In this document: positions 54,703 through 64,000 of the stretch, one piece after another
How positions within the stretch are numbered: position 1 is the stretch's first letter
Layout of the letters: each line of letters opens with the position of its first letter
Assembly: GCA_022647575.1 (NCBI GenBank)
Contig: JALCKY010000003.1
Coordinates: 145,001 to 209,000, forward strand
Direction of reading: 5' to 3'
DNA: 64,000 nucleotides
Source of the DNA: Lachnospiraceae bacterium
Lineage (GTDB): Bacteria; Bacillota; Clostridia; Lachnospirales; Lachnospiraceae
Notes under the pieces: model-generated
Database searches by the model: none
Told to the model about the DNA's origin: nothing
The model's input: only the letters and a program-made list of their open reading frames with translations
Translations under genes and position numbers: made by a program

Positions 54703-55998
54703 ATGTCAAGTTTCTTTACTTATGAGGAACGCCTTTTCCTTCAGAAATATCTGAAAGAAGGTCTTTCCTTCAAAAAAATCGCAGGCCTGCTCGGCAAGAA
54801 CGACACTACGATCTCACGGGAAGTGAGAAAGCATATGAAGGTAATTGCCACCAGCCGGCCCGGCTGTATTTATAATCCATGCCGCAGGAGAAGTGCCTGC
54901 AAGCGGCGCGGGCTCTGCAGGGACTGCCGCAGGAGCGCCGGATCATTCTGCCGCTTCTGTCAGACATGCCGGGATGTCTGCCCTGACTACATCGAAGAAG
55001 TCTGCACCGCACGGTTCCATGTGCCGTATGTCTGCAACGGCTGTTCCCGGTTCCCGAAATGCCCGCTGGCAAAGAACTTCTATGATGCCGAGAAGGCACA
55101 TCTGGAAGCACATGCATCGCTCTCCGCAGCGAGAAGCGGACTATGCGTCTCGGAACAGGAGATCAGCCATCTGAATGCTGTCATCAGCCCTCTTGTGAAG
55201 CAGGGGCAGTCCGTCCATCAGATCTATCTCCATCACAGGGACGAGCTCATGTGCTGCGAGAAGACCGTCTACAATTATATCGACGCCTGCCTCCTGGATG
55301 TCCGGAACATCGACCTCCCCAGGAAGGTACGTTTCCGACAGCGCTATAAGAAGCCTGAATTCAAGGTCGACCGCGGCTGCCGTATCGGAAGGAGCTACAC
55401 TGATTTCCAGAGGTTCCTGGGATCAAGCCCCGAGACGGCTGTCGTCCAGATGGACAGCGTCATCGGGACACCGGGCGGGAAAAGCCTCCTTACGGTCCAC
55501 TTTGTGGAATCCAGTTTCATGCTTGCCTTCCTGCGGGATGCCAACACCTCACAGTCCGTGATCGATATCTTCGACGGTCTTTACAGCCTGATCGGGGCGG
55601 ATGTCTTTACAGGGCTCTTCCCCCTGATCCTTACGGATAACGGAAGCGAATTCTCAAATCCGAAGAGGATCGAGTTCGGTCCGTCCGGCAAAGGCCCTCT
55701 GCGGACCCGCGTGTTCTACTGCGATGCAGGCAGCCCATTTCAGAAGGGCGCGATCGAGGTGAACCATGAGCTCATCCGGCGCATCATTCCGAAAGGGAAG
55801 AGCTTCGACAGCCTTACGCAGGAGGATATCACGCTCATGATGAACCACATCAATTCATACAAAAGAAAAAAGCTGAACAACCGCAGTCCCTACGACGCGT
55901 TCAGCTTTTTTCATGGGGAAGGAACTGCAGGGCTTCTTGGCTGTTCCCCGGTCGCACCCGGGGACATCGTACTGAAGCCTGCCCTTCTTCGGAAATAG
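54703..55998 (+). CDS. IS30-family transposase
   Basis: 431 residues. An N-terminal HTH (LSFKKIAGLLGKNDTTISREVRKHM) is followed by a Cys-rich, probably zinc-binding block (about residues 55-130). The DDE core follows: Asp in VVQMDSVIGTPGG, Asp in LILTDNGSEFSNP and Glu in IEVNHELIRRI. The order and spacing match IS30 transposases of Firmicutes. The frame is intact. AAGGAGGCGCC precedes the ATG. Confidence 0.9.
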   Translation: MSSFFTYEERLFLQKYLKEGLSFKKIAGLLGKNDTTISREVRKHMKVIATSRPGCIYNPCRRRSACKRRGLCRDCRRSAGSFCRFCQTCRDVCPDYIEEVCTARFHVPYVCNGCSRFPKCPLAKNFYDAEKAHLEAHASLSAARSGLCVSEQEISHLNAVISPLVKQGQSVHQIYLHHRDELMCCEKTVYNYIDACLLDVRNIDLPRKVRFRQRYKKPEFKVDRGCRIGRSYTDFQRFLGSSPETAVVQMDSVIGTPGGKSLLTVHFVESSFMLAFLRDANTSQSVIDIFDGLYSLIGADVFTGLFPLILTDNGSEFSNPKRIEFGPSGKGPLRTRVFYCDAGSPFQKGAIEVNHELIRRIIPKGKSFDSLTQEDITLMMNHINSYKRKKLNNRSPYDAFSFFHGEGTAGLLGCSPVAPGDIVLKPALLRK

Positions 55999-56449: not shown

Positions 56450-58732
56450 ATGGAAAGAAAACTGGAAGATTATCTGGATGGTCCTGTTTCTGCTCAGACG
56501 ACACTGGAATTATACAATGCCGCACTTCACCTGGCATCCGATGCCGTGAAAGAACACGGATACAACAGCGGCAGGAAAAAACTCTATTATATATCTGCGG
56601 AATTTCTGATCGGCAAGCTGCTGAGCAATAACCTGATTAATCTCGGGCTCTATGATTCCGTAAAAAAAGAGCTGGCAGATGCCGGCAGGAGTCTTTCCGA
56701 ACTCGAAGAATTTGAAGCGGAGCCTTCCCTTGGGAACGGCGGACTCGGCAGGCTGGCTGCCTGCTTCCTGGACAGCTGCGCCACCCTCGGCCTGCCCGCC
56801 GACGGTGTCGGCCTTGCCTATCATGAAGGTCTTTTCCGTCAGGTATTTGCCGACCGCATGCAGAAAGAAAAACCCGATTCCTGGCTGGTCTGGGGAAGAG
56901 AAAACTGGATGCGCCGGACAGCCCGCCGCTATACGGTCGAGTTTCGGCGGCTTCTCCCTGCCGTCCGTGATGTACGAAATCGACGTGACCGGATATCATG
57001 GAAAATGCGGACGTCTCTGCGTCTCTTCGACATCGACTCGATTGATGAACGGATCATCAAGGACGGCATCCGTTTCAATCAGAAAGACATTGCAAAAAAC
57101 CTGACTCTCTTCCTTTACCCGGACGACAGCAATGACGAAGGCCGCCTGCTGAGAGTCTATCAGGAATATTTCATGGTCAGCAATGCGGCACAGCTTCTGA
57201 TTGATGAAGCGATGGAGCGCGGCTCGGACCTGCACGACCTGCCGGAATATGCCGCGGTCCAGATCAACGACACGCATCCGACCATGGTCATTCCCGAACT
57301 CATCCGTCTTCTTGAACAGCACGGTATCGAAGAAGAGGAAGCCATTCAGATTGTCACGCAGGTCTGCGCTTATACGAATCATACGATCCTTGCGGAAGCC
57401 CTTGAGAAATGGCCGCGGCATTTTATCGAATCCGCCGCTCCGCAGCTGATGCCGATCATCGAAAGACTGGACGCGCGCGTCCGTGAAAAATTCGGAGATC
57501 CTTCTGTCTTCATCATCGACGACAGCAGCTGTGTGCATATGGCCCGGATTGATCTTCATTTCTCGCATTCCGTCAACGGTGTTGCCGCTCTGCACACGGA
57601 AATCCTGAAGAAGAGCGAACTGCATCCGTTTTATGAGCTGTACCCGGAAAAATTCAACAACAAGACCAACGGAATCACCTTCCGCCGCTGGCTTCTGGAA
57701 TGCAATCCGGAACTTTCATCGCTGATTACCGAAACGATCGGGGAAAGCTGGAAACAGAATGCGGACGAGCTGGAAAAATTGCTTGAGCACGCCGGAGACC
57801 GGGAATTTCTGAAGAAACTGATTCAGATCAAGAAAGACAATAAAAAGACCTGTGCCGAATGGCTCAAGCGTACGCAGGGAATCGAAGTCGATCCGGATTC
57901 CGTTTTCGATATCCAGTCGAAGCGCCTGCACGAATACAAGCGCCAGCAGCTGAACCTGCTGTGGCTCATCCATCAGTATCACGAACTGAAAGCCGGCATG
58001 ATCCCGGATGCGAAAATCACCGCGATCTTCGGAGCCAAGGCTGCTCCGGCCTACACGATTGCCAAGGACATCATCCACGCGATACTCTGCCTTCAGGAAA
58101 TCGTGAACCGGGACCCGGATGTCAGCCGCTATCTGAAGATTGTCATGGTGGAGAATTACAACGTCACTGCAGCCGAGGAAATGATTCCGGCCTGCGACAT
58201 TTCCGAACAGATTTCTCTTGCCTCCAAGGAAGCTTCCGGCACCAGCAACATGAAATTCATGCTGAACGGTGCTGTCACCCTCGGAACAATGGACGGTGCA
58301 AATGTAGAAATTGCCGGTCTGGTCGGTGATAAGAACATCTATACCTTCGGTGAAAGCTCCGATGAAGTCATTTCCCATTACCGGAACAATGACTACCACG
58401 CATGGGACTGGGTGCAGAAGGACAGACGGATCTCCGACGCTCTCTATTTCCTTGTCAGCGATCAGATGATGGAGGTCGGGAATGCGGATTCCCTGACCCG
58501 CCTTCACGGCGAACTGACCGGGAAAGACTATTTCATGACGCTTCCTGATTTTGAAGATTACTGCCGGATCAAGTCCCGCATGCTCCACGATATTCTCGAT
58601 GAAGAAAACTGGGCGGTGAAAATGCTGACCAACATCGCCAAAGCCGGATACTTCTCTTCCGACCGGACAATCCGGCAGTACAATGAAGAGATCTGGAAAC
58701 TGACGGAATCATCACAGAATGCAGTAAATTGA
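56450..58732 (+). CDS. glgP: Glycogen/maltodextrin phosphorylase (internally scrambled by compensating indels)
   Basis: 760 residues of GT35. EPSLGNGGLGRLAACFLDS, NLTLFLYPDDSNDEGRLLR, QINDTHPTM and the PLP-lysine segment EASGTSNMKFMLNGAVTLGT are intact. Pyridoxal phosphate-dependent phosphorolysis of alpha-1,4-glucan gives glucose-1-phosphate. Between about 56953 and 57020 the frame is wrong: an extra T and an extra CT dinucleotide offset each other, so the real GGFSLPSVMYEIDVTGYHG is read as unrelated residues. AAGGAGGTTTCCCA precedes the ATG. No glgA, glgB or glgC lies in the window. Confidence 0.87.
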   Translation: MERKLEDYLDGPVSAQTTLELYNAALHLASDAVKEHGYNSGRKKLYYISAEFLIGKLLSNNLINLGLYDSVKKELADAGRSLSELEEFEAEPSLGNGGLGRLAACFLDSCATLGLPADGVGLAYHEGLFRQVFADRMQKEKPDSWLVWGRENWMRRTARRYTVEFRRLLPAVRDVRNRRDRISWKMRTSLRLFDIDSIDERIIKDGIRFNQKDIAKNLTLFLYPDDSNDEGRLLRVYQEYFMVSNAAQLLIDEAMERGSDLHDLPEYAAVQINDTHPTMVIPELIRLLEQHGIEEEEAIQIVTQVCAYTNHTILAEALEKWPRHFIESAAPQLMPIIERLDARVREKFGDPSVFIIDDSSCVHMARIDLHFSHSVNGVAALHTEILKKSELHPFYELYPEKFNNKTNGITFRRWLLECNPELSSLITETIGESWKQNADELEKLLEHAGDREFLKKLIQIKKDNKKTCAEWLKRTQGIEVDPDSVFDIQSKRLHEYKRQQLNLLWLIHQYHELKAGMIPDAKITAIFGAKAAPAYTIAKDIIHAILCLQEIVNRDPDVSRYLKIVMVENYNVTAAEEMIPACDISEQISLASKEASGTSNMKFMLNGAVTLGTMDGANVEIAGLVGDKNIYTFGESSDEVISHYRNNDYHAWDWVQKDRRISDALYFLVSDQMMEVGNADSLTRLHGELTGKDYFMTLPDFEDYCRIKSRMLHDILDEENWAVKMLTNIAKAGYFSSDRTIRQYNEEIWKLTESSQNAVN

Positions 58733-59204
58733 TTTCAGCAGTTCCGTCCCGGTCTTCGTGCGGAAAATCTCTTTCTGAAAGTTTTGAATGTTTTCCCGGC
58801 TGATAGCTGCTTTCGTCGGCGTTCACCAGATAATCCGCTTCAATCAGGATCTGATAATCATCGCCTTCAATGTCCCGAAGCGTATGATGGTGTCCGACCA
58901 GAAAAATGATGCGGTCGTTTTCCGCTTCCGTCAGGCCTTTATCCGAAAGGAACTCCCGTGCCAGGATCATTCCTTCGCTTTCCTGATGCTTACCGTCGGT
59001 ATTGCCGTATTTCCTTCTGCACAGCGGACAGGCGATATCATGAAGAATGGCTGCGATTTCCAGGATTTTCTGCGTCTCCGGATCCAGCCCTTCGCATTTT
59101 CCGATTGTCTCCGCATAGCCATGTACTTTCAGGAAATGACAGATGTCGTGCAGGTTTCCGTCCGAATACTGAATCATTTCCTTCATGATTTCCGAACTGT
59201 TCAT
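58712..59204 (-). CDS. HD-domain phosphohydrolase-like protein (frameshifted near the end)
   Basis: About 163 residues. The HD motif ILHDIACPLC and an earlier HDICHFLKVHGYAETI provide the metal ligands, with VGHHHTL and LIEADYLVNADESS downstream. HD proteins hydrolyse nucleotides or phosphoesters; the substrate is unknown. An extra base near 58800 breaks the frame; correction gives SRENIQNFQKEIFRTKTG and a stop at 58712, overlapping the convergent glgP end by 21 bases. ATG 59204 with GGGAGGCAGCG upstream is the start. Confidence 0.75.
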
Positions 59205-59234
59205 CGCTGCCTCCCGTAACCCGGTTCTGCGCTG

Positions 59235-59292
59235 ATTATAGCATAAAAAGCTCCCGTCCCGGAAAGCAGTCTCTGCCTTGCCGGAACGGGAG
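59235..59292 (-). promoter_or_regulatory. Terminator of the double-cubane operon merging into the HD-gene promoter
   Basis: CTCCCGTTCCGG (59292-59281) pairs with CCGGGACGGGAG (59262-59251), followed by CTTTTTATGC and TATAAT (59240-59235). The T-tract leads directly into an extended -10 element, as at 14395-14442. Confidence 0.7.
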
Positions 59293-59350
59293 TCCCTCAC
59301 ACAGTCTTCTTCAATTCATAAAATGGTCCGGCCGGACCGCCGTCCGCTCT

Positions 59351-59641
59351 TCAGCAGTACCTGTCCCTGTGGGAAATGATCTGTCCGGCCAGCGGAACGA
59401 TATCGTAATACTCTGCCTTGTTTTCGGAAATGCATTTCCTGACCGCCTCAATAGCCTCCGGCTCGATCAGCAATGACATGCCGCAGGAAAGCTTTCCCTG
59501 AATGGAACGCGGAGCCGGCGCAATCCGGTTTTCCAGCCCATGGTCTGACAGCAGTTCATGAAGAGCCAGCCCCTGTTCGTAATTCTGAAACAGGATATAA
59601 TACCGCAGCCGGCCTTCCTCCCCGTTTTTTTCTTCAGGCAT
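59351..59641 (-). CDS. DUF3343 (putative Se/S-carrier-like) protein
   Basis: 96 residues. YYILFQNYEQGLALHELLSDHG and APRSIQGKLSCGMSLLI with a conserved Cys match DUF3343, a small family often encoded beside cysteine desulfurases and hydroxyacyl-CoA dehydratase-like reductases and suspected to carry sulfur or selenium. It overlaps the double-cubane reductase gene (59634-59641) and closes the operon ahead of a terminator. Confidence 0.78.
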   Translation of the reverse strand: MPEEKNGEEGRLRYYILFQNYEQGLALHELLSDHGLENRIAPAPRSIQGKLSCGMSLLIEPEAIEAVRKCISENKAEYYDIVPLAGQIISHRDRYC

Positions 59642-60908
59642 TAAGCATCTCTACGAAAGCACCGATTCGCGTGCGGAGCTGCTCGGCATCCGTATCCGTA
59701 TAATCCGTCTCCAGGCTGAGTACCGGTACGCCGGCTTCCTTCAGGGCTCTGGATACCGAACGTTTCTCCGTATCATACAGGCAGCAGAACTGCAGGCTGC
59801 AGTCAATGACGCCGTCGGCATGGTATTCCTTGACCATGCGGAGAATGTCGTCGACACGGCCGGTATTCGGCGTGAAGCATGCGCAGTTGGTCTTCATGTA
59901 GCGTTCAGACAGAGCCATGAACTGATCATCCAGGGTTGTCTTTGTTTCATCCACAAGGTTCTCGAAATATCTCGTGCCTGTGCACATTTCCTCGCAGACA
60001 ACGGCTGCACCGCTGGTCTCGATGATGTTGTGCAGCTTCCAGTTCGGGACTGCCAGAGGCGTGCCGGTCAGCAGGATTCTCTTCGTGCCTTCCTTGACCA
60101 CTGAAACGCCGTCCTTGATTCTCTGTTCCAGCTCATCCGCCAGCCGGTTGCACATCTGTGCGCAGCGGACCGGATCGTCGAAGAATGAGATCTGCATCAT
60201 CAGCAGGGAGTCTCTTCCGGAAATGGGGAGGCACTCCGACTTGCGGCAGTTGTACACCCTTGCCAGCGCGCGCCGTTTCTCATTGACGATATGGATGGCT
60301 TCGTTCAGCTTTTCGGGAGTGATTTCATTTCCCGTAAACTCCTCGACCTTTTTTGCAAACTCCGCGATTTCTTCCTTCCATTTCACGATGTCTTTATCCC
60401 GCTTCATCTGCGGAACGTCCATGACATACATCGGGACGTCTTCGCCGAGAATCTCATAAGCCTTCTTTTTTCCGTCGCAGGTCGTCTCACCGACATACAT
60501 GTCCGCGATGCGGAAGAACGGGCAGGTGCGGCCCAGACGGGCACCGACCGAAGCCTTGATGAGAGGGCAGGTATTTTTCGGCAGGACAGCTTCGCCGCCC
60601 GGAACCCAGAACTGCGAGCCGCCGCAGAGTCCCGTCACGATGCCGTTTGCCGCGATGACGACTTCATCCGGAACATAGACGCAGAACGTTCCGAAAACCT
60701 TGCGGCCTTTTTTCTGTTCCTCGATCAGCTCTGCCGGACGGATGCCGTGTACTTCGGAAATCACCATATCCCAGAAGTCCATGGCCTTCGGACGGTTTTC
60801 CTGGGAAAGGAAGACATCCCCGACGGCAGTCGGAAGCACGTTGCACAGTTTGTCATGGTTCTCGATATCCATTCCCAAATCTTTCCACATCTGATGATAG
60901 TCTGACAT
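59634..60908 (-). CDS. Double-cubane-cluster anaerobic reductase (HgdB/HgdC-family)
   Basis: 424 residues, similar to 2-hydroxyacyl-CoA dehydratase beta-like proteins that carry two linked [4Fe-4S] cubanes. Cys-containing motifs are FGTFCVYVPDEVV, NTCPLIKAS, RTCPFFRIAD, RKSECLPISGRD and DCSLQFCCLYDTE, all expected around the clusters. Such reductases perform low-potential, ATP-driven reductions of small or unsaturated substrates; the natural one is unknown. The activase gene lies upstream in the same operon. GGAGGTATAAAA precedes the ATG. Confidence 0.85.
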   Translation of the reverse strand: MSDYHQMWKDLGMDIENHDKLCNVLPTAVGDVFLSQENRPKAMDFWDMVISEVHGIRPAELIEEQKKGRKVFGTFCVYVPDEVVIAANGIVTGLCGGSQFWVPGGEAVLPKNTCPLIKASVGARLGRTCPFFRIADMYVGETTCDGKKKAYEILGEDVPMYVMDVPQMKRDKDIVKWKEEIAEFAKKVEEFTGNEITPEKLNEAIHIVNEKRRALARVYNCRKSECLPISGRDSLLMMQISFFDDPVRCAQMCNRLADELEQRIKDGVSVVKEGTKRILLTGTPLAVPNWKLHNIIETSGAAVVCEEMCTGTRYFENLVDETKTTLDDQFMALSERYMKTNCACFTPNTGRVDDILRMVKEYHADGVIDCSLQFCCLYDTEKRSVSRALKEAGVPVLSLETDYTDTDAEQLRTRIGAFVEMLNA

Positions 60909-61001
60909 TTTTATACCTCCATTTTTTTAATTCCTTACGGATGTTTTTTCCGGCAGTCGGTTCTCCTGCTGCCGTTATGCGCGTGATTGTTCTCCGTGCT
61001 T

Positions 61002-62145
61002 TCAGTTTTCTCCCGCCAGCTTCCTTCACGGCGGAAACTGCTGCGTCGATCTCCTCTTCGGTATTGAACCAGGAAAAGCTGAACCGTACCGCTCCCTGCT
61101 GCGTCGTTCCCAGTGCCTCATGCATGCGCGGCGCACAGTGTGCCCCCGGCCTCGTGGCAATTCCGTAGGTCCGGAAAAGTTCGTCGGATACGGCGCCCGA
61201 TTCATAATCACGGATGTTCAGGGCAACGGTCGGCGCATGGAGTTTCCCGGAAAAGTCACCGTAGATTTTCACGCCGTCAGTCCCGGATACGCCTTCATAG
61301 AACCGCCGCATCAGCGCCGTTTCTTTTTCACGGATCACGGAGATTCCCGTTTCTTTGATGAAATCAAGGGCGGCAGACAGCCCCGCAATTCCGTGACTGT
61401 TGAGCGTTCCGGCCTCCAGCCGGGTCGGATATTCTTCCGGCTGGCTCTTCAGATAGCTCTGCACGCCGGTTCCGCCGGTCTTCCACGGACGGATCTCCAC
61501 GCCTTCCCGCAGAAGAAGTGCTCCGGTGCCCTGCGGTCCCATGAGGCCCTTGTGTCCCGAGAAGCACAGAACGTCTATGTTCATTTCCTGCATATTGATT
61601 TCCAGGCAGCCGGCCGTCTGGGATGCATCGGCAATAAAAATCAGTCCGTGCCTGCGGGCGATATCTCCGATTTCCGCCAGGTCGTTTACATTTCCGGTCA
61701 GATTGGAAGCATGCGTGCAGACGATGGCCTTTGTATTGGGGCGGATCCGTTCCTCAAAATCTCCGATACGGATTTTTCCGTCGCGGTCGGCCGGCACGAA
61801 ATCCAGTCCGACGTTTTTTTCCGCCTGCAGGCGGTACAGAGGACGCAGAACGGAATTATGCTCCATGTCCGTGGAGATCACATGGTCTCCTTCGGAAATG
61901 ATTCCGTTGATGGCAATATTCAGGGATTCCGTCGCATTTGCCGTGAAGACGGCATGGTCCGCACGGGAGCAGCCGAACATTTCTGCCAGCTTCTGCCGGG
62001 TGCCGAAAACGGAGCGGGAAGCATCCAGTGAACTTTCGTGCGTTCCCCTTGCCGCATTTCCGAAAGTGGTCATCGCTTCCGTGACCGCATCGATGACCTG
62101 CTGAGGCTTATGAATGGTTGTTGCCGCATTGTCGAGATAAATCAT
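61002..62145 (-). CDS. Class V aminotransferase / cysteine desulfurase-like protein (frameshifted at the C-terminus)
   Basis: About 380 residues. IYLDNAATTIHKPQQVIDAV, ADASQTAGCLEIN and the PLP lysine in CFSGHKGLMGPQGTGAL are typical of CsdB/SufS-like desulfurases; RPGAHCAPRMHEALGT carries the likely active-site Cys. An extra base near 61025 makes the frame run on into the next gene by 56 bases; correction ends it VKELAGEN at 61002. It may supply sulfur for the double-cubane clusters (inference). AAAGGAACGCT precedes ATG 62145. Confidence 0.82.
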
Positions 62146-62217
62146 AGCGTTCCTTTCCCGTTCAGATACTGTATAAAAAACCGAACCGCCCTGATCCGCG
62201 GTTCATGCATACGGGTT

Positions 62218-63012
62218 TCATGCATAAAGGGATGAGGCAATCAGCGCCGCGCCTTCCGCTCCGGCATAGCGTCCTTCTTCGCAGGTCCTGACCGGAACCT
62301 TCAGCGCTTCCGAAAGCGCGCTTCTTAAATATTCAATGCCGCACAGACCGCCGGTGAGACAGGCTGTCGTTCCTTCATAAGGAAGACGTCCGGCCTGCGA
62401 TGCTACTTTTGTCACGATTGAATTCACGACGGCATAGGCGATATTTTCTTTCTTCTCGCCACGCCCGATCAGACTGGTCACTTCGGATTCCGCAAAGACC
62501 GTGCAGAGCGAACTGATGGACGTGCTGCCGCCTTCAGATGCAAGAGCGCAGAGTTCCCGGACGTCCACCGCCAGCGTATTGGCCATGATTTCGAGGAAGC
62601 GTCCCGTTCCGGCAGAACATTTGTCGTTCATGACAAAATCCTTGACGCTGCCGTCTTCCACGGAAATCAGCTTCGTATCCTGTCCTCCGATGTCAATGAC
62701 CGTCATGGCGGAAAGCCCGTGGATATGGCAGGCCCCTTTGGCATGGCAGGTGATCTCCGTCACGCATTTGTCCGCATACGGCACCGAAATGCGCCCGTAG
62801 CCTGTCGCAACGACTGCCGTATTGTCTTCCCCGCAGCCTCTTTCCAGAATGGCCTTCCGGATGTCCTCTGCCGTTCCGATGCTGCTCCATCCGGTAGCCT
62901 GAAGCAGGCGGAAGCAGACCGCTCCTTCCCTGTCCATGACGACCGTCTTGGCGCAGGTGGAGCCGATATCGATTCCTGCAAAATATTTAATATCCCTCAA
63001 ATTATTTTTCAT
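62218..63012 (-). CDS. Acyl-CoA dehydratase activase-like ATPase (HgdC/archerase type)
   Basis: 264 residues of the ASKHA fold. The phosphate loops are GIDIGSTCAKTVVMD and VIDIGGQDTKLI, and NDKCSAGTGRFLEIM supplies one of the Cys residues; the second is in SSLCTVFAESEV. A dimer holds one [4Fe-4S] cluster and injects electrons into the dehydratase or double-cubane partner upon ATP hydrolysis. It is the first gene of the operon. The site before ATG 63012 (TTAGAGTAG) is weak. Confidence 0.87.
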   Translation of the reverse strand: MKNNLRDIKYFAGIDIGSTCAKTVVMDREGAVCFRLLQATGWSSIGTAEDIRKAILERGCGEDNTAVVATGYGRISVPYADKCVTEITCHAKGACHIHGLSAMTVIDIGGQDTKLISVEDGSVKDFVMNDKCSAGTGRFLEIMANTLAVDVRELCALASEGGSTSISSLCTVFAESEVTSLIGRGEKKENIAYAVVNSIVTKVASQAGRLPYEGTTACLTGGLCGIEYLRSALSEALKVPVRTCEEGRYAGAEGAALIASSLYA

Positions 63013-63176
63013 CTACTCTAATGTATCATGAAGAAGGGCATTTGAGAAATTGATAATCCGCCCTCTTTTGGTTCATTTATCTGTTTTATCTATAAACTAA
63101 TTCTTTTTTATCTATTTTTATCCCATCCGTCCTTTTTGCGTTAAAATGGAAGCAGTTCCCGGATCAGGAGGTTTCC

Positions 63177-64000
63177 ATGGAATTCAGACAGCTGGAATTA
63201 TTCATTGCCGTTGCAAATGAAAAAAATTTCTCCAAGGCCGCGGAGGATGTTTTCCTCTCCCAGTCCACGGTCAGCACCCATATCCGGAATCTTGAGAAAG
63301 AGCTCGGAAAGACACTGCTTGAGCGTTCGACGAAATCCGTTCGCCTGACGGAAGACGGGGAAATATTCCTGAAATATGCCAGACGGATCATGGACATGAA
63401 AGAAGCCGCGCTTCAGGCGCTTTCCGGCACGGCGGAATCCATCCTGCACATCGGGGCTTCCACGATTCCTTCCGGCTATCTTCTTCCGCCGGTCATGGGC
63501 GCCTATCACGAAAACCATGCCGGCATTTATTTCGATATCAGTCAGGGCGACTCCCAGTCGATCCTGCAGAAGGTCCAGGACGGAACGGTGGAATTCGGCA
63601 TTGTCGGCCAGAAAGAAAATGCCTCCAAATGCACTTTCCTTCCTTTCTGCTCCGACCAGCTGATGCTGATTACCCCTTCGAATGATCATTATCTGGAACT
63701 GAAAAAGAAAAATCCTGAAATCGCAGATCTCCTGCAGGAACCAATCATCCTCCGGGAAAACGGGTCCGGCACTCAGAAGGCGGCTGACCGTTTCCTGGAA
63801 GGGATCCATGTCGGTCCCGAAAAGCTCCGCGTCATCGCGCGGAACAACGATCTGGAATCCATCAAGCGGATGGTTGCCGACGGCGTGGGTATTTCCATCA
63901 TGTCGGAATATGCCGTGCAGGACCTGATCCAGCGGGGGCAGATTCTGGCCTATCCTCTCCAGAGCAGGTTCCGCCGGAAATTCTATCTGACCTATTTAAA
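63177..64000 (+). CDS. LysR-family regulator, cut by the right window edge
   Basis: At least 274 residues. The N-terminal HTH (MEFRQLELFIAVANEKNFSKAAEDVFLSQSTVSTHI) is complete and an effector domain follows (LHIGASTIPSGYLLPPVM, FGIVGQKEN), resembling CysB/CysL-like regulators of sulfur or selenium metabolism. It is divergent from the double-cubane operon across 164 bases that contain several TTTATCTAT boxes (63075-63125) and is the likely regulator of that operon. CAGGAGGTTTCC precedes the ATG. Confidence 0.85.
   Translation, partial: MEFRQLELFIAVANEKNFSKAAEDVFLSQSTVSTHIRNLEKELGKTLLERSTKSVRLTEDGEIFLKYARRIMDMKEAALQALSGTAESILHIGASTIPSGYLLPPVMGAYHENHAGIYFDISQGDSQSILQKVQDGTVEFGIVGQKENASKCTFLPFCSDQLMLITPSNDHYLELKKKNPEIADLLQEPIILRENGSGTQKAADRFLEGIHVGPEKLRVIARNNDLESIKRMVADGVGISIMSEYAVQDLIQRGQILAYPLQSRFRRKFYLTYL

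Follow-up and report, generated by a model that had tools for sequence, protein, structure and literature searches.

A double-cubane cluster reductase operon with a candidate role in selenium supply in a Lachnospiraceae bacterium

A stretch of 64,000 nucleotides from a Lachnospiraceae bacterium (assembly GCA_022647575.1, contig JALCKY010000003.1, positions 145,001 to 209,000), hereafter the window, was analysed for the function of an operon at its right end. The operon encodes an activase, a cysteine desulfurase-like enzyme, a double-cubane cluster protein (DCCP) of the HGD-D family and a DUF3343 protein, and lies opposite a gene for a LysR-type regulator. An earlier note on this DNA, made from the sequence alone, had described this arrangement, and all five genes were found where it had placed them.

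Gene content of the locus and selenium genes of the genome

The four minus-strand genes are closely packed (Table 1). A gap of 72 bases separates the activase and desulfurase genes, the desulfurase and reductase genes overlap by 56 bases and the reductase and DUF3343 genes by 8 bases, which fits a single predicted transcript. In the adjoining sequence the LysR gene ends 76 bases past the window edge.

Table 1. Features of the operon and its divergent regulator, in window positions, with profile scores in bits and the cut-off of the model where given.
Feature	Position	Strand	Basis
Activase (BcrAD/BadFG ATPase), operon gene 1	62218-63012	minus	TIGR00241 221.9 bits > 125.4; PF01869 169.5
Cysteine desulfurase / selenocysteine lyase-like pyridoxal phosphate (PLP) enzyme (class-V aminotransferase)	60853-62145	minus	TIGR01977 428.4 > 377
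Double-cubane cluster reductase (DCCP), HGD-D family	59634-60908	minus	NF040772 500.8 bits > 350
DUF3343 (Pfam 'Se_S_carrier'), DCCP-partner type	59351-59641	minus	PF11823 60 bits > 25
LysR-type regulator, selenium-associated family	63177-64000, on to window-equivalent 64076	plus	NF040786 298.6 (in-window part) > 250
Divergent intergenic region, presumed two-way promoter region	63013-63176		read directly

By profile search, DCCP is the sole gene of this genome above the cut-off of NF040772, a curated NCBI model named 'double-cubane-cluster-containing anaerobic reductase'. The operon holds one HGD-D gene and one activase, as expected of a DCCP, a predicted homodimer of a single kind of subunit served by its own activase, and with the activase also above its TIGR00241 cut-off the identification of a double-cubane reductase with a dedicated activase was borne out. 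A classical 2-hydroxyacyl-CoA dehydratase was rejected as an assignment: the two models scored 122.4 bits against a cut-off of 700 and 25.4 bits against one of 750, and no partner genes were seen in the operon or in the 11 kb inspected at right.

The desulfurase-like frame has 430 amino acids, and 38 of 51 aligned rows have 370–389. Its C-terminal run-on of about 50 residues is unusual; it could be genuine, or reflect loss of the stop codon or a fault in the assembly. Of the 51 aligned rows, 98% have Cys at the position of Cys337, which by its motif we take to be the catalytic-type position. The enzyme belongs to the same class-V aminotransferase family as SclA of Enterococcus faecalis (PMC13188914). 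The name SclA itself was ruled out, since the enzyme matches the SclA model NF040779 at 373.1 bits, under the cut-off of 525, and is not an SclA equivalog.

At full length the LysR protein scored 318.4 bits against NF040786 (cut-off 250), the NCBI curated model named 'selenium metabolism-associated LysR', and its host genome carries selD (384 bits, without in-frame TGA). The genome (3.03 Mb, 94% complete) has selD on another contig, in one stretch with yedF, yqeB, yqeC, a selenium-dependent xanthine dehydrogenase (1233 bits, cut-off 830), YgfK and a mocA-like gene under its cut-off. No match to selA was found in this 94% complete genome, selB and tRNA-Sec lying outside the search, and the genome was not classed as decoding selenocysteine (Sec). 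Because selD, yedF, yqeB, yqeC and the xanthine dehydrogenase are present and selA has no match, the genome looks like one that uses selenium via the molybdenum-hydroxylase cofactor. Nearly all, though not all, carriers of the LysR_Se family decode Sec according to Lin et al. 2015 (PMC5322559), so that the missing selA match is compatible with membership of that family. The gene set of the selD stretch corresponds to the selenium-cofactor trait of Haft and Self 2008 (PMC2276186); the window operon lies outside this stretch, whereas DCCP adjoins such genes at loci L134, L043 and L048 of other genomes. A hydantoinase-like gene of the selenium-cofactor stretch is spread over two overlapping frames (L012:13695-15087), which suggests a frameshift, either genuine or introduced by the assembly.

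Co-occurrence of DCCP with selD and its gene neighbours

Gene presence was counted in a class sample of 196 genomes and a phylum sample of 249 genomes, both of which include the window genome and which also have a few non-carriers in common. Genomes with a DCCP above the NF040772 cut-off were counted as carriers, and those with only a sub-cut-off match as non-carriers. In the class sample, DCCP was found in 20 genomes, selD in 44, selA in 32, yqeB in 20 and the NF040786 LysR in 29. All 20 DCCP carriers, spanning 8 families, have selD, compared with 24 of 176 non-carriers (Fisher 1.7e-15, shared ancestry uncorrected), and a DCCP above the cut-off occurred in none of the 152 selD-negative class genomes. 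The phylum sample gave selD in 76/78 carriers and 90/171 non-carriers (p 1.2e-14, again uncorrected for shared ancestry). Three genomes with sub-cut-off matches (G184, G333, G402) also have selD. Of the 14 named genomes used as controls, only E. coli and M. jannaschii had DCCP together with selD, and of 50 genomes tested from the best relatives of the window DCCP, selD was present in 47.

Four of the 20 class carriers, the window genome among them, have no selA and all four have yqeB; selA without yqeB was seen in 11. Within the 44 selD genomes of the class sample, the ratio of selA-positive to selA-negative genomes was 16:4 with DCCP and 15:9 without it (p 0.32). DCCP is tied to SelD, not to one use of selenophosphate. 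As DCCP is independent of selA within selD genomes, a role at or before selenophosphate synthesis is the simplest reading. Of the 29 class-sample carriers of the selenium-family LysR, 26 have selD; the sole exceptions were G065, G082 and G093.

Gene neighbourhoods were compared in the best 80 of 228 relatives found (76–91% identity to the window DCCP), with fetched flanks of up to 10 kb that were often shorter. DUF3343 was found in all 80, a desulfurase-like gene in 65, activase in 60, yedF in 34, selD in 16, LysR in 5, selA in 4 and yqeB in 3. At least one of selD, selA, yedF and yqeB lies near DCCP in 36/80 relatives; where 6 kb was available on each side (42 loci), the figure is 17. The gene immediately after DCCP encodes DUF3343 in 79 of the 80; in L077 the DUF3343 gene lies about 3 kb further on. 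The commonest order (12/80) was selD, yedF, second DUF3343, activase, desulfurase, DCCP, DUF3343, and L134 unites in a single run xanthine dehydrogenase, yqeB, mocA, yqeC, selD, desulfurase, yedF, DCCP, DUF3343 and activase. The earlier note had proposed such a survey for selD, yedF and molybdenum hydroxylase genes, and its outcome was positive for selenium. For residue conservation, 81 loci yielded 66 rows for DCCP, 51 for desulfurase, 46 for activase and 47 for DUF3343, the remaining rows being dropped by the open reading frame filter or the gene being missing.

Neighbour families that had not been seeded were retained when they recurred in at least 5 loci and were labelled from one representative each; clusters of 21 and 12 loci were left out because they were antisense frames over DCCP. 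A second DUF3343 recurred in 17 loci and a YedE-type sulfur-transport protein in 7. An oligopeptide/dipeptide-type ATP-binding cassette (ABC) transporter ATPase was seen within 7 kb of DCCP in 17 loci, for example at L127:2772-3731.

Cysteines of the reductase and its DUF3343 partner

The closest solved structures to the window DCCP were those of the PDB 6ENO / 7YYL group (~468 bits, residues 3-422 aligned), the double-cubane cluster protein of Carboxydothermus hydrogenoformans. The two proteins are alike in the N-terminal 58 residues and in the aligned cluster cysteines. The [8Fe-9S] ligands reported for BzdN are C36, C73, C100, C263, C293 and C327 (PMC11971306). By hand count, C36, C73, C100, C263 and C327 align with C76, C114, C144, C309 and C375 of DCCP, and C293 aligns with C344, or with C342 under another gap placement, both of these cysteines being present. 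The window DCCP has a Cys at every position aligned with these six ligands.

Eight cysteines (C76, C95, C114, C129, C144, C309, C342 and C375) were found in 85/85 DCCPs of the window clade (rows sharing 64% identity or more with the window protein), 9/9 other long DCCPs and 22/22 short DCCPs. C342 is thus universal, and C344 is V in 16/22 short DCCPs. The window clade has extra cysteines at C305 (85/85), C249 (81/85) and C376 (78/85), the last adjoining the ligand C375. They occur in 1/9, 0/9 and 0/9 of the other long DCCPs and in 10/22, 0/22 and 0/22 of the short ones; in the C. hydrogenoformans protein C249, C305 and C376 are replaced by F, G and Q. A second, short DCCP paralogue (34–39% identical), keeping all eight universal cysteines, was seen in the same cluster as the long one in L061, L065, L075, L080, L087-L089, L105, L106 and L135.

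The DUF3343 partner of DCCP, which matches PF11823, carries an internal Cys53 and a C-terminal Cys96. Of 47 copies, 94% have Cys at position 53, and the C-terminal residue is Cys in 77/87 partner frames, mostly in the form R-D/N-x-Y/F-C. The invariance of C96 in alignment A1 and its model is by construction, as their input was limited to copies ending in Cys, plus that of the window. Among the 10 partner copies without a terminal Cys, L035, L045, L047 and L049 belong with another long-DCCP group, the frames of L061, L095 and L119 look cut or mis-extended, and L086, L136 and L138 are real-looking exceptions. Another DUF3343 type, found in 31/80 relative loci and usually beside yedF, ends in Cys in 1/39; the 25 copies inspected for it carry the motif C-G-L/M-x-W. 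This genome has a second DUF3343, of the yedF-partner type, on contig C1 (L004:9557-9793), whose neighbours by eye are a LUD-like gene and cell-wall genes rather than selenium genes. Lin et al. 2015 describe one conserved Cys in DUF3343 and no selenium-specific branch; the terminal Cys may mark such a branch.

The AlphaFold model of the window DUF3343 was of moderate quality (pLDDT 74.6, pTM 0.58) and showed a ferredoxin-like beta-alpha-beta-beta-alpha-beta fold with a loose tail. Foldseek returned only weak PII/CutA-like matches for it (best E 6e-3, TM ~0.45). No co-variation of C376 of the reductase with the terminal Cys of DUF3343 was seen among the seven window-clade rows without C376: six of these go with a partner ending in Cys, and the seventh had no partner that could be found.

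Oscillospiraceae copies share up to 91% identity with the window DCCP. In a quick tree (SH-aLRT support only) the window protein grouped, with support, in sets of 81 and 51 rows, neither of which includes any of the 26 loci fetched from its own class sample. Pyruvate kinase from the same genome was 43–55% identical in those relatives' genomes that gave a match (18 of 22) and 43–57% identical in five genomes of its own family. This suggests horizontal transfer of DCCP, which is unproved because the relatives were chosen for high identity.

In the 11 kb inspected to the right of the window, four proteins were scanned (DUF7005, TPR, peptidase M15 and peptidase M14) and the remaining genes, transporter-like and sensor-kinase-like, were labelled by eye only. 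On the other side, an HD-domain protein (58569-59300, minus strand) lies immediately downstream of DUF3343 and is probably outside the module, since no such family recurs beside DCCP in relatives. Further left is a glycogen-phosphorylase-like frame of 760 amino acids (56450-58732) with Pfam matches in two separate stretches, in which residues ~150-200 look odd on visual inspection, suggestive of a pair of frameshifts or a short deletion. A transposase-like frame with an HTH_38 match (54703-55998), IS30-type by eye, lies between a regulator-like gene and the phosphorylase.

Proposed function and alternatives

The observed gene content, family membership, ligand cysteines, nesting of DCCP in selD genomes and physical linkage to selenium genes together suggest that the operon is a selenium-supply module acting at or upstream of SelD (selenophosphate synthetase), a reading to which we give about an even chance. 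Within it, ATP-driven selenide delivery is the most likely role of DCCP. The PLP enzyme would, as its family suggests, liberate selenium (or sulfur) from selenocysteine or cysteine as an enzyme-bound perselenide. The two-thiol DUF3343, with Cys53 and with Cys96 on a flexible tail, would collect the selenium and bring it to DCCP, a step to which the adjacency of the genes and the conserved cysteines point. The activase would use ATP to load the [8Fe-9S] cluster with low-potential electrons; such loading is known for the family, and the double-cubane cluster resembles nitrogenase-type chemistry. DCCP would then release reduced selenium, most likely selenide, to SelD, and the selenophosphate formed would here serve the selenium-dependent molybdenum hydroxylase genes on the other contig. 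LysR, judged by its family, may tune expression to selenium status. To our knowledge, the route of selenide delivery to SelD is unsettled.

A more specific model, reached by analogy, is tentative and rather doubtful. The window clade would consist of ATP-driven selenium reductases in which the DUF3343 arm holds selenium between Cys53 and the terminal Cys and presents it to the [8Fe-9S] cluster, with selenide passing to SelD; the two-thiol arm is likened to DsrC, which carries sulfur.

Several observations weigh against a selenium-supply role. selD is absent from two phylum carriers of DCCP (G361, 81% complete; G423, 94%), from G042, which has a sub-cut-off match, and from three of the tested genomes of the best relatives. 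Many selD genomes (24/44 in the class and 90/166 in the phylum sample) have no DCCP, which is therefore no general requirement for selenophosphate. Partner genes are variable outside the window clade: with seeds from this genome only, DUF3343 was matched at 7/26 class-sample DCCP loci, and selD, selA, yedF or yqeB at 4/26 (L043, L044, L047, L048). A LysR gene was matched near DCCP in only 5 of the 80 relatives, being divergent as in the window in 3 of them, and the desulfurase-like enzyme falls short of the SclA model. Perselenide reduction does not obviously need ATP-driven potentials, and lifestyle could account for part of the association with selD, the counts having been made without a control family from anaerobic metabolism.

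In the main rival within a selenium function, DCCP would cleave the C-Se (or C-S) bonds of small organoselenium compounds such as methylated selenides, comparable to the action of the nitrogenase-like MarHDK on sulfur compounds, as a salvage route for SelD. Low-potential ATP-driven chemistry would be better matched to bond breaking than to perselenide reduction, the nesting in SelD genomes fits equally, and the recurrent oligopeptide-type ABC transporter could point to uptake of small compounds. A preprint (PMC10418091) places DCCP genes in proposed methyl-selenium metabolism clusters and mentions MarHDK. We nevertheless consider C-Se cleavage unlikely here: the window-clade partners, DUF3343 and the desulfurase-like enzyme, point to protein-bound selenium, and no methyltransferase or corrinoid protein was among the neighbour families recurring in at least 5 loci, as labelled from one representative each and with rarer neighbours unannotated.

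Desulfurases generally feed Fe-S assembly, and the desulfurase and DUF3343 might serve solely to assemble the double-cubane cluster, from sulfur or conceivably selenium, the substrate of DCCP being unrelated. The frequency of both genes beside DCCP in relatives fits this, but near-confinement of DCCP to selD genomes and its linkage to selD and yedF would be left unexplained. In addition, 0/11 class-sample loci with only a short DCCP had a DUF3343 match, although the seed may miss distant DUF3343 proteins, and DUF3343 thus seems dispensable for the cluster. We allow a cluster-building role a small chance. The earlier note had offered sulfur or selenium, in cluster assembly or as the substrate; the general theme held and the evidence favours selenium and SelD, while its sulfur supply for cluster assembly found no support in that form. 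Of the two answers, selenium stands on firmer ground than sulfur.

The association with selD might also be a by-product of an anaerobic lifestyle, with the operon reducing some other small molecule. Acetylene, azide and hydrazine are known test substrates of DCCP, and a 2025 structural paper (PMC11971306) gives the biological function of double-cubane proteins as unknown. This explanation is nonetheless improbable, in view of the one-sided nesting in the class sample and of the selD/yedF/yqeB linkage and selenium-family LysR, which lifestyle would not explain. A cryptic 2-hydroxyacyl-CoA dehydratase or related acyl-CoA enzyme shares the Pfam family HGD-D and the same kind of activase but is scarcely credible, given model scores far under the cut-offs, the presence on contig C11 of this genome of another HGD-D pair that has its own activase, and the lack of any acyl-CoA gene seen in the 11 kb at right (four proteins scanned, others by eye) or among recurrent neighbours. 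The earlier note had likewise reported neither a dehydratase alpha subunit nor a CoA gene in the vicinity of the reductase, and had held that acyl-CoA genes directly to the right, linked in relatives, would speak against its view; none were seen in either place.

The link between DCCP and selenium is partly in print already (Lin et al. 2015; a 2023 preprint). In Slackia heliotrinireducens, Lin et al. describe a LysR-like regulator, DUF3343, Sec lyase, activase, YedF, SelD and an HGD-D subunit as functionally linked; the window operon differs in lying apart from selD, in a genome without a selA match. Judged by titles and the starts of abstracts, a link between 2-hydroxyglutaryl-CoA dehydratase and selenium was found only in Lin et al. 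within the searchable literature; double-cubane proteins and selenium were found together, among the papers listed, in the preprint and in a paper on inorganic synthesis. As that literature leaves most subscription papers outside, the nesting of DCCP in selD genomes may have been published before. Haft and Self 2008 applied the same nesting logic to the YedF family. In an E. coli LysR study, yjiM and yjiL are tabulated together with formate hydrogenlyase genes among those that changed, which fits and proves nothing.

The locus is another example of a known and unexplained type. In the samples, DCCP is nearly confined to genomes with SelD, whether selenium enters proteins or the molybdenum cofactor. 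If the clade does consist of ATP-driven selenium reductases, selenium would be the first physiological substrate of double-cubane proteins and DCCP a dedicated point of entry into the selenium pathway. The value of the locus lies in making the function of DCCP testable, as the nesting within selD genomes turns double-cubane function and selenide delivery into one testable question.

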